A stretch of 64,000 nt of DNA from Shimia sp. Alg240-R146 (lineage in GTDB: Bacteria; Pseudomonadota; Alphaproteobacteria; Rhodobacterales; Rhodobacteraceae): NCBI RefSeq assembly GCF_947331465.1, contig NZ_CAMZOK010000003.1, positions 124,001 through 188,000 of the forward strand, written 5' to 3'. The translations under genes were made by a program, and so were the position numbers. Below the pieces are notes generated by a model that saw only the letters and a list, made by a program, of their open reading frames with translations, was not told the DNA's origin and did not search any database. Positions 17,215 through 61,034 of the stretch are shown here, piece by piece; the stretch's first letter is position 1; each line of letters opens with the position of its first letter.

Positions 17215-17460
17215 TTTCCTCACTTTCTGCATTGCAGCATACTTTTTAGGCACGCTCACTTTTACAATTTCTTCACAAATAGGCCTTTGTTTTCCGTATC
17301 TTGCCTAAATTGCTGCCTTTTCCAAGGTGACGCTACGTTCGTATTCCACTGACGCATAGCTGCTTTGCACAGCCGGGTATTGTGCACCTGCAGCAACACC
17401 CTATATCACCATCATCAAGACGAAACGAAACGAACACCGCACGATGCTCGAGGTATCAAG

Positions 17461-17679
17461 ATGGCATATGTAACAAACACAAACACCGTGGCAACCGCCA
17501 CCGAAGCCCGCGGCCTCTCGGTTCTGTTTTCGAACCTCGCAGAGAAATGGCGCCAATACCGCGTTTACCGCGAAACATACTCCGAGCTGATGGACCTGTC
17601 TGATCGCGATCTCGCTGATCTGGGCCTGAACCGCTCGATGATCCGCCGCCTGGCCATCGAGGCCAGCCGCGAGCACTAA
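17461..17679 (+). CDS. ccaF1: DUF1127 protein, CcaF1-like
   Basis: A 72-residue basic protein with an N-terminal Thr/Ala-rich part and the C-terminal DUF1127 motif (LSDRDLADLGLNRSMIRRLA, 46-65). In Rhodobacter sphaeroides the DUF1127 protein CcaF1 is encoded directly upstream of, and co-transcribed with, the CcsR1-4 sRNAs, and acts as a small RNA-binding protein that influences RNA maturation. The same order occurs here, with the hairpin array starting nine bases after the stop. The symbol is assigned by this synteny. In Rhodobacter the locus depends on the RpoHI/RpoHII stress sigma factors; I could not place that promoter securely in the 246 bases before the gene. Confidence 0.88.
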   Translation: MAYVTNTNTVATATEARGLSVLFSNLAEKWRQYRVYRETYSELMDLSDRDLADLGLNRSMIRRLAIEASREH

Positions 17680-17687
17680 AAATTTCG

Positions 17688-17755
17688 GGAAGCCGCTCCT
17701 CCCTCAGGCTTTCCAATTCAGCGATGGTGTCTCTCCTCCTCCCTGACATCATCGC
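17688..17755 (+). ncRNA. CcsR-like sRNA, unit 1 of 4
   Basis: Two hairpins. The first (17688-17714) has stem GGAAGCC/GGCTTTCC with loop GCTCCTCCCTCA, the most diverged loop of the array. The second (17721-17755) has stem GCGATGGTGT/ACATCATCGC with the standard 15-base loop CTCTCCTCCTCCCTG. The loop contains CCTCC(T), the same sequence as the 16S rRNA anti-Shine-Dalgarno. The boundaries given are the hairpin edges; true ends after processing are unknown. Confidence 0.85.
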
Positions 17756-17786
17756 AAGAACATCGGGCCCAAAGGCCCAACGGAAT

Positions 17787-17862
17787 CAAGGTCTCCTCTC
17801 CTCCTCCCTGGAGATCTTGTGACTAGAGCGACGGCACCTCTCCTCCTCCCTGGTGTCGTCGC
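17787..17862 (+). ncRNA. CcsR-like sRNA, unit 2 of 4
   Basis: Hairpin A (17787-17819) has stem CAAGGTCTC/GAGATCTTG; hairpin B (17828-17862) has stem GCGACGGCAC/GTGTCGTCGC. Both carry the identical loop CTCTCCTCCTCCCTG. A short GGGCC/GGCCC hairpin (17765-17778) precedes the unit and recurs before units 3 and 4, possibly as an RNase processing spacer. Confidence 0.9.
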
Positions 17863-17895
17863 ACCAGAACATCGGGCCACATGGCCCAACGGGAT

Positions 17896-17971
17896 CAAGG
17901 GTTCCTCTCCTCCTCCCTGGAACCTTTGAGACTAGAGCGACGGCGCCTCTCCTCCTCCCTGGCGTCGTCGC
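17896..17971 (+). ncRNA. CcsR-like sRNA, unit 3 of 4
   Basis: Hairpin A (17896-17928) has stem CAAGGGTTC/GAACCTTTG; hairpin B (17937-17971) has stem GCGACGGCGC/GCGTCGTCGC. Both have loop CTCTCCTCCTCCCTG. The spacing to unit 2 is 109 bases. Stem bases differ from unit 2 on both sides in a compensating way, while the loop is unchanged. Confidence 0.9.
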
Positions 17972-18006
17972 ACTACCAACATCGGGCCGATCCGGCCCAC
18001 CGAGAT

Positions 18007-18095
18007 CAGGGCCTTCCTCTCCTCCTCCCTGGAGGGCTTTGACACAAGAACGGCGGCGCCTCTCCTCCTCCCTGGCGCCGCCGTTTCTTTTTTCT
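18007..18095 (+). ncRNA. CcsR-like sRNA, unit 4 of 4, with terminator
   Basis: Hairpin A (18007-18041) has stem CAGGGCCTTC/GAGGGCTTTG with three G-U pairs. Hairpin B (18050-18084) has stem ACGGCGGCGC/GCGCCGCCGT, the most stable of the array. Both carry the standard loop. Hairpin B is followed by TTCTTTTTT, so the last hairpin of the operon also works as its Rho-independent terminator. Confidence 0.9.
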
Positions 18096-18136
18096 CAAGG
18101 CTGTTTTCGGGGTCAGCTCCCCTATGTGTTAAGGCG

Positions 18137-18766
18137 TCAAAGACCCGCGCTCGGTCGCGCCTTTATCTTCTCGAACCACGCCTGCGAGGCCGCGTTTCCT
18201 TCAGGTATGCCTTGCTTCACGATCCGCGCAAAATCGCAGAATACAAACCCCGTGATATCGGCCATCGTGAAATCATCCCCCGCAAGGAACGCACTTTCCG
18301 ACAACCGCGCCTCCAACGTATCAAAGAACCGTCCCAGCCGCAGAATGCCCCGCTCCGCCAACGCCGGAATCTGCGCGTAATCCACTGCCCCCGGCAACGC
18401 CCGCCCCTTCAGAGCAGGCGTCGAATTGCGCAACGCCTCTGCGATGGCCATGCCCGCATGAAACTCGCAGATCGCGTTCCACATCAACACTTTGCCCTTC
18501 TCATCAGGCGTCACGCCCATCAACGGCGGCTCAGGGCACATCGCTTCCAAATAGCCCGCAATGGCGATGTTTTCGGTCAGCGGTGCACCCTCATCTGTCA
18601 CAAGAACCGGCACGGTGCCATGAGGGTTGATTGCTAAAAATTCGGGCTTCCGGTGCGCATCGTGGCGCAAATCCACCTGCTGCACCTCCACATCAATGCC
18701 CTTTTCGGCCATAAACATGCGCGCGCGCCGCGGGCTGGGCGCTGTGGAACAGTCGTAAAAGATCAT
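18137..18766 (-). CDS. glutathione S-transferase family protein
   Basis: A 209-residue protein with an N-terminal thioredoxin-fold domain (IFYDCSTAPSPRRARMFMAEKG; NPHGTVPVLVTDEGAPLTENIAI with the cis-Pro and the Glu-Asn glutathione contact) and an all-helical C-terminal domain (FLAGDDFTMADITGFVF). It is expected to conjugate or reduce electrophiles with glutathione in the cytosol. It converges on the CcsR array, which in Rhodobacter influences glutathione levels; that link is suggestive only. Confidence 0.9.
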   Translation of the reverse strand: MIFYDCSTAPSPRRARMFMAEKGIDVEVQQVDLRHDAHRKPEFLAINPHGTVPVLVTDEGAPLTENIAIAGYLEAMCPEPPLMGVTPDEKGKVLMWNAICEFHAGMAIAEALRNSTPALKGRALPGAVDYAQIPALAERGILRLGRFFDTLEARLSESAFLAGDDFTMADITGFVFCDFARIVKQGIPEGNAASQAWFEKIKARPSAGL

Positions 18767-60535: not shown

Positions 60536-60610
60536 GCGGGCGTAGCTCAGGGGTAGAGCATAACCTTGCCAAGGTTAGGGTCGTGAGTTCGAATCTCATC
60601 GCCCGCTCCA
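60536..60610 (+). tRNA. tRNA-Gly (GCC), copy 1
   Basis: A 75-base tRNA with acceptor GCGGGCG/CGCCCGC, discriminator T and encoded CCA. The anticodon arm has loop TTGCCAA (anticodon GCC) and the T-arm has GTTCGAATC. Confidence 0.98.
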
Positions 60611-60635
60611 ATTTCCCTCTCAGGGAAAGCCGAAC

Positions 60636-60664
60636 AAGGCGCGGTTTATTCCGCGCCTTTTCGC
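60636..60664 (+). terminator. terminator after tRNA-Gly copy 1
   Basis: AAGGCGCGG pairs with CCGCGCCTT, then TTCGCTTTTT. The identical structure follows copy 2. Confidence 0.85.
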
Positions 60665-60747
60665 TTTTTGACCGTACCGAGAAAATTGCACCATTTAGCC
60701 CTTGCGCCTCGCGCACTCTGCGGCTACATCCGCCTCACCCAAAGGAC

Positions 60748-60822
60748 GCGGGCGTAGCTCAGGGGTAGAGCATAACCTTGCCAAGGTTAGGGTCGTGAGT
60801 TCGAATCTCATCGCCCGCTCCA
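60748..60822 (+). tRNA. tRNA-Gly (GCC), copy 2
   Basis: Identical in sequence to copy 1, exactly 212 bases downstream. Confidence 0.98.
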
Positions 60823-60847
60823 ATTTCCCTCTCAGGGAAAGCCGAAC

Positions 60848-60876
60848 AAGGCGCGGTTTATTCCGCGCCTTTTCGC
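60848..60876 (+). terminator. terminator after tRNA-Gly copy 2
   Basis: Same stem and T-run as after copy 1, displaced by 212 bases. Confidence 0.85.
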
Positions 60877-60959
60877 TTTTTGACCGTACCGAGAAAATTG
60901 CACCATTTAGCCCTTGCGCCTCGCGCACTCTGCGGCTACATCCGCCTCACCCAAAGGAC

Positions 60960-61034
60960 GCGGGCGTAGCTCAGGGGTAGAGCATAACCTTGCCAAGGTT
61001 AGGGTCGTGAGTTCGAATCTCATCGCCCGCTCCA
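60960..61034 (+). tRNA. tRNA-Gly (GCC), copy 3
   Basis: Identical to copies 1 and 2. The sequence after its CCA differs from the repeat, which marks the right end of the duplication. Confidence 0.98.

Follow-up and report, generated by a model that had tools for sequence, protein, structure and literature searches.

A probable ccaF1-CcsR-type (cuckoo RNA) operon in Shimia: a DUF1127 gene followed by eight conserved anti-Shine-Dalgarno hairpins

The 64,000 nucleotides of Shimia DNA analysed here (the window) harbour a small protein gene followed on the same strand by a dense array of RNA hairpins (Table 1). The gene belongs to the DUF1127 family, as a profile search with PF06568 gave 50.5 bits against a cut-off of 23.3, and eight hairpins with anti-Shine-Dalgarno (anti-SD) loops follow within 17682-18090. 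The original prediction of such a gene and eight such hairpins thus held, with every element lying where it had been placed, and so did the grouping of the hairpins into four two-hairpin units, whose spacing, put at about 110 bases, can now be given as 107, 109 and 113. A third class of hairpin, located between the units, was absent from that earlier account. A T-run, reading TTTCTTTTTTCT, directly follows the stem of hairpin 8 (18084-18095), and from the sequence this hairpin likely doubles as a terminator; it is absent from a generic terminator scan that permits loops of 3-8 nt only.

Table 1. Features of the DUF1127-hairpin locus (window coordinates)
Feature	Position	Strand	Basis
Promoter region	17352-17406	+	conserved block in alignment of 29 upstream regions
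TGC-rich dyad, eroded here	17352-17368	+	part of promoter region
TTGTGCACCTGCAGCA promoter element	17380-17395	+	exact match at G000:C3:141380-141395
CCTATAT, -10-like	17400-17406	+	part of promoter region
GAGGT, likely ribosome-binding site of DUF1127 gene	17450-17454	+	sequence
DUF1127 small protein gene, 72 aa, CcaF1-like	17461-17679	+	PF06568
Hairpin 1, variant loop GCUCCUCCCUCA	17687-17714	+	predicted fold
Hairpin 2, 13-nt anti-SD loop	17721-17755	+	predicted fold; covariation in alignment
Spacer hairpin 1, GGGCC-CAAA-GGCCC	17765-17778	+	predicted fold; covariation in alignment
Hairpin 3, 13-nt anti-SD loop	17787-17819	+	predicted fold
Hairpin 4, 13-nt anti-SD loop	17828-17862	+	predicted fold
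Spacer hairpin 2, GGGCC-ACAU-GGCCC	17874-17887	+	predicted fold
Hairpin 5, 13-nt anti-SD loop	17895-17929	+	predicted fold
Hairpin 6, 13-nt anti-SD loop	17937-17971	+	predicted fold
Spacer hairpin 3, GGGCCG-AUC-CGGCCC	17984-17998	+	predicted fold
Hairpin 7, 13-nt anti-SD loop	18006-18042	+	predicted fold
Hairpin 8, 13-nt anti-SD loop, then T-run	18046-18095	+	inverted repeat 18049-18060/18074-18085

Seven of the eight loops are identical and one is a variant, as had been proposed, but not with 15 loop bases: the outer C and G pair, leaving an unpaired part of 13 nt, UCUCCUCCUCCCU, and the variant loop of the first hairpin is shorter. The predicted fold of 17680-18100 leaves all eight loops open, and these 421 bases fold at -192.2 kcal/mol versus -136.5 kcal/mol for 100 dinucleotide shuffles (sd 6.0, z -9.4). 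The 11-base CTCCTCCTCCC occurs seven times in the 4.19-Mb genome, each time at the array and on the same strand, compared to two occurrences of the reversed control pattern. Among 234 hairpins the loop is exactly UCUCCUCCUCCCU in 132, CCUCCUCCC is present in 190, the core UCCUCCC in 230 and CCUCC in every one. The original equation of the loop with the 16S anti-SD is therefore correct for CCUCC, which is common to both, whereas the core UCCUCCC extends beyond it. The usual 16S tail is without the last C residues of UCCUCCC, which makes the loop a better partner for GGGAGGA than 16S. Hairpin 1 is specialised, in that CCUCCUCC is missing from the opening hairpin of the array in 20 of the 24 genus loci. 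Within units, first hairpins are predicted to be less stable (-14.0 kcal/mol, n=96) than second hairpins (-21.8 kcal/mol, n=94), a contrast somewhat blurred by a few miscounted loci because the two were assigned by parity. From this asymmetry we infer a protective role for the second hairpin at the 3' end of its unit, and the first may be the easier one to open on meeting a target.

To follow the stems across relatives, we compared arm pairing in 144 hairpins of 29 loci, taking only those with exactly the 13-nt loop, and found that fixed 10-nt arms pair with their own partners at 9.39 of 10 positions, but at 6.35 when one arm is swapped in from another locus (9.0 versus 5.7 over 81 distinct arm pairs). 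In a count over all 234 hairpins (9.44 versus 5.54) only the own arms had been optimised. In an alignment of hairpin 2 and the first spacer from 23 of the 24 genus loci (L031, in which the region is short, was left out), 97.2% of cells are paired and the covariation score is 0.400, compared to 0.235 for shuffled and at most 0.149 for slid alignments. Taken alone, the number of further pair types (17 versus 18.6 in shuffles) and of double-change pairs (7 versus 5.1, matched by 60 of 500 shuffles) is unexceptional. The innermost spacer pair is open in 9 of the 23 rows, which we read as a one-base alignment shift and left in the alignment. The compensating stem changes originally described are thus confirmed, own arms pairing far above swapped arms and covariation exceeding that of shuffles. 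Many of the variants are G-U pairs; the opposite strand would have A-C at these places, and this identifies the functional RNA as that of the plus strand: it is plus-strand RNA structure that is under selection. An open, conserved loop on variable stems in turn points to pairing with purine-rich mRNA sites.

The spacer hairpins take the form GGGCC(N4)GGCCC or GGGCCG(AUC)CGGCCC. The 83 gaps between hairpins fold better than their shuffles (mean -9.3 versus -5.6 kcal/mol), and the two strands of the spacer stems vary together (GGGCC in 27, GGACC in 14, GATCC in 6, GGGCT in 4 and GGGTC in 3 of 68 stems of at least 5 pairs). As each of these stems was chosen as the best helix of its gap, the own-pair figure is perfect by construction and hence was not used. 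We propose that the spacer hairpins may be processing or spacing elements.

A covariance search, the check proposed with the original prediction, recovered exactly the four units with the Rfam CcsR1 model (RF02791; E 1.5e-11 to 1.2e-6, the first match starting at 17682), at scores of 34.8, 43.8, 46.0 and 51.3 bits that stay below the curated cut-off of 65.3. Whole-model matches to ar14 (RF02344) gave 38.1, 52.6 and 54.2 bits and likewise did not reach the cut-off of 58.8. As these narrow models are not reached, we place the locus in the wider CIN1/cuckoo class, as CcsR-like, and apart from RF02791 proper. The sequence-level features that mark the CIN1 class are present: a small DUF1127 gene directly upstream on the same strand, repeated two-hairpin units with unpaired CCUCCUCCC loops (seven full and one variant) and, judged by its letters only, a terminator closing the array on its 3' side. 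At Rfam gathering thresholds the window yields four tRNAs only, the CcsR1 units surfacing in E-value mode. Three tandem tRNA-Gly(GCC) genes, 212 bases apart and with identical sequences and identical spacers, occupy 60536-61034.

At E 0.001, CcsR1 matched 205 of the 248 genomes drawn from the bacterial family, 10 of which pass the Rfam cut-off, and, among 14 well-known control genomes, one (Thermus composti). The DUF1127 protein of the window is 41% identical over 69 residues to that of the top CcsR1 scorer (L049). In a class-wide draw, 18 of 289 genomes matched at the same threshold, five of them from the window's own family; among the 13 others only L179 and L180, from one genus, have paired CCUCCUCC loops, with no DUF1127 match within 3 kb around either locus, and the remaining 11 are, by the look of the loci, probably chance matches to other hairpins. 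At least one closely spaced motif pair is present in 31 of 60 relatives (the window's own genome counted) and in 24 of 25 genomes within the genus, where a scripted tally with some miscounts gave 8 hairpins in 18 loci, 10 in two, 7 in two, 9 in one and 12 in one. A DUF1127 gene lies upstream of the array in 29 of 30 loci of a first set, the exception (L011, G030:C13) being a second anti-SD hairpin pair on a 5.2-kb contig of a genome that has a full array elsewhere (L047). The same is true for 25 of 32 loci of a second set, chosen for high CcsR1 scores, all 25 with a loop motif within 160 nt after the stop codon; for the other seven, no DUF1127 gene was found in flanks of mostly about 1.5 kb. 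The two sets overlap in a few genomes (L012 and L071 are from the same genome). By eye, the last anti-SD hairpin lacks a clear T-run at L020, L021, L023-L025, L027, L028, L031-L033 and L035, and several of these Shimia loci have a separate terminator-like hairpin further down, such that fusion of the terminator with the last hairpin varies.

Upstream of the gene, some 60-120 bases ahead of its start codon, lies a block whose conservation extends from Shimia to the genomes with the best CcsR1 scores; it consists of a TGC dyad, YATTGTGCANNYGCAGCA and a -10-like CCTATAT or CCCATGTT, in this order. The conserved TTGTGC...CCTATAT block is at most consistent with RpoHI/HII control, a promoter scan gave no sigma-70-like match, and by its sequence the block could contain the RpoH promoter that the available part of PMC10253847 reports for R. 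sphaeroides. Neither a TTGTGCANNYGCAGCA element nor a TGCTGCNNNGCA dyad was detected on either strand at L042 and L044-L046, four further DUF1127 loci of the same genome; the overlapping L044/L045 stretch has one short GCATAGCGGC match, on its minus strand.

The layout of this block also resembles the double PhaR-type boxes of phaP, whose promoter in all 25 genus genomes (L109-L133) contains two YGC-RNY-GCR dyads 29-30 bp apart, mostly within TGCTGC...GCAGCA; in the window's own genome the second phaP dyad lies between TTGAAA and TAGATAT. A matrix made from 51 phaP boxes (one a wrong site, removed for the scans of window tiles and of the mrp box) scores at least 8.9 in 35 of 54 ccaF1-type promoters (10 of 29 in the first set, 25 of 25 in the second). 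Reversed sequences score at most 5.6 and shuffles reach the observed median of 13.8 in 0.2% of cases, while 13.8 is reached by 4.5% of random 200-nt pieces of the loci, these promoters included, and 8.9 by 1.25% of 319 window tiles. The window species has a degraded first dyad and the 200 nt before its ccaF1 give no matrix match above zero, and the dyad of ccaF1-type promoters in the family has ATR where phaP has RNY; for these two reasons we do not claim PhaR control of the Shimia copy. The best PhaR-box match in the window, TTCTGCATTGCAGCA at 17225-17239, falls within the 5' portion of mrp, a divergent gene, and a strong PhaR-like box occurs at the same place of mrp in 4 of 29 loci. The TTGTGCANNTGCAGCA pattern, with up to two mismatches, occurs 83 times versus 43 for its reversed control, and similar sites with one mismatch lie upstream of genes at L082, L086 and L088 that we take, from their translations, to be a crotonyl-CoA carboxylase/reductase, the transhydrogenase PntA and a peroxiredoxin.

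To look for mRNAs with which the loops could pair, we searched the genome for GGGAGGA 3-11 nt before an ATG and found 105 places compared to 8 for the reversed pattern, an excess that must mostly consist of ordinary strong SD sites. The 8-base GGGAGGAG precedes an ATG at 19 places among the GGGAGGA matches listed, 16 of which gave an ORF, and these 16 inspected genes include pdhA (TIGR03182, over its cut-off). The chance of including one named gene is about 0.5% given some 4,000 genes, a figure to be read knowing that several pyruvate dehydrogenase and C1 genes could count. Also among the 16 are what we presume to be a formate-dehydrogenase-like alpha subunit and two CO/xanthine dehydrogenase-type subunits, with NCBIfam scores under their cut-offs; the remainder we read as transporters and assorted enzymes.

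Because CcsR RNAs of R. sphaeroides, which target flhR mRNA, also affect the pyruvate dehydrogenase complex according to the available text of PMC8307010, we examined the pdhA site across the family. At the ribosome-binding sites of pdhA in 30 loci, the mean longest complementary run is 6.6 nt to the loop and 5.1 nt to the 16S tail, and this gap in favour of the loop is larger than at phaR (4.9 and 4.0, 25 loci), fdh (5.4 and 4.8, 30 loci), mrp (5.1 and 5.4, 38 loci) or phaP (4.2 and 5.1, 25 loci), in gene sets that are unmatched (genus sets for phaP, phaR and, mostly, mrp, family-wide ones for pdhA and fdh) and with pdhA starts chosen with the help of SD strength. A looser procedure retrieved 17 of the 30 pdhA genes with a mean of 6.1 (at least 7 in 5 of the 17; means of 3.1-4.4 for the other genes), another start rule retrieved 27 with a mean of 6.6, and too strict a motif only one. 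Among 56 genomes with pdhA, 55 of which gave a start, the mean longest loop complement is 6.67 in the 46 CcsR1-positive genomes (at least 7 in 26) and 5.11 in the 9 negative ones (at least 7 in 3), an exploratory difference (Mann-Whitney p 0.023) that is confounded, since the negative set also has the weaker 16S complement (4.4 versus 5.1). The formate dehydrogenase-like gene has its 8-base site in the window's own genome, but a run of at least 7 in only 6 of 30 loci across the family. Predicted pairing energies (loop/16S tail, in kcal/mol) are -17.0/-11.3 for pdhA, -20.1/-17.0 for the formate dehydrogenase-like gene and -7.1/-6.5 for phaP, while the 16S tail is predicted to pair more strongly than the loop at ccaF1 (-5.8/-9.4) and mrp (-8.7/-12.5). 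Based on these complementarities, pdhA is a good candidate for a direct repression target, and such pairing could account directly for the effect on pyruvate dehydrogenase that has been reported for CcsR RNAs.

The locus is thus very probably a CIN1-type (ccaF1-CcsR, "cuckoo RNA") operon of Shimia, with trans-acting loops that lower the translation of target mRNAs under stress. To the gene order, conserved loops, terminator-like end and family-wide occurrence that we observe, analogy with the R. sphaeroides system would add co-transcription, cutting by RNase E, stress control and target repression. A single plus-strand transcript would start from a promoter near 17380-17406, take in the DUF1127 gene and end at the hairpin 8 terminator. 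Cleavage of its 3' UTR between units would release four sRNAs, each having two stem-loops with UCUCCUCCUCCCU exposed in an open loop. Pairing of each loop with GGGAGGA-type ribosome-binding sites would then lower translation of the mRNAs concerned under stress, with several copies providing a higher dose and, as we propose, pdhA being a direct target. The DUF1127 protein may assist RNA processing; DUF1127 proteins need not act on RNA, however, as in Agrobacterium they regulate the kinase PhoR, with complementation by CcaF1 itself, and YjiS showed no RNA binding (all from the available portion of PMC12501420).

Since CCUCC is present in each of the 234 hairpins, since eight loops would sit on one transcript and since about a hundred GGGAGGA-type sites precede an ATG, the array could be imagined as a ribosome decoy, the loops mimicking the 16S anti-SD and titrating SD sites or 30S subunits generally to bring down bulk initiation under stress. 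We consider this unlikely, as the conserved core exceeds what is common to 16S and predicted pairing strength differs from gene to gene, pdhA favouring the loop and mrp the 16S tail. It is distinctly unlikely that the hairpins act mainly in cis, stabilising the DUF1127 mRNA or ending its transcription with loops unused elsewhere: the array does form the 3' UTR of the gene, hairpin 8 does carry the T-run and the second hairpins of units are the more stable ones, but stability alone would not preserve the loops (132 of 234 exactly UCUCCUCCUCCCU, 230 with UCCUCCC) while the stems change.

That the repeats encode protein, or are DNA-level repeats of a mobile element, has next to no probability. 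Open frames do exist, and a 175-aa ORF (17853-18380) crosses the repeats, but none of the unit spacings is a multiple of three, G-U changes preserve pairing only in plus-strand RNA and the array stays after a DUF1127 gene across genera; on the spacing and G-U evidence we rejected both versions. RNA loops that act in trans on selected mRNAs remain our preferred reading. A broader idea, prompted by sequence matches and on balance rather unlikely, is that the array serves as a carbon-flow brake, with loops fitting the family pdhA ribosome-binding site and a promoter also read by the PHB-sensing PhaR via the TGC dyad. A link between PhaR and an sRNA has precedent in S. meliloti, as PhaR represses the sRNA MmgR there (available text of PMC12542648). 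If the idea were true, stress and carbon storage would jointly set acetyl-CoA entry, and the PhaR input would be reduced in the window species and its closest relatives.

The Shimia locus is a further instance, from a marine bacterium, of a type of regulatory RNA locus that has been investigated in Rhodobacter before. A family known mainly from R. sphaeroides is thereby placed in a marine genus and its wide spread in the bacterial family is demonstrated, and the exact elements to mutate are supplied (the 13-nt loops, the first-hairpin variant and the spacer hairpins). In a literature search covering sources other than the primary CcsR, CcaF1 and cuckoo RNA papers, the texts available to us do not mention the spacer hairpin, the UCCUCCC core or the pdhA pairing. 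As originally proposed, the layout is that of ccaF1-CcsR1-4 in Rhodobacter (Cereibacter) sphaeroides. The available description in PMC10253847 has the same gene order and loop sequence, likewise four units of two hairpins and, at the end, a hairpin with T-run; common to both loci are a DUF1127 gene followed by four same-strand sRNA units, CCUCCUCCC loops and a 3' terminator. The first loop of a unit has 10 nt in the Rfam CcsR1 consensus, but 13 nt in Shimia units 2-4. The alpha-r14 family (RF02344), for example NfeR1, likewise exposes the CCUCCUCCC anti-SD motif in unpaired hairpin regions, yet its RNAs have three hairpins, each with the motif (as far as the available text of PMC10746234 describes them), whereas Shimia carries an eight-hairpin array in a 3' UTR.
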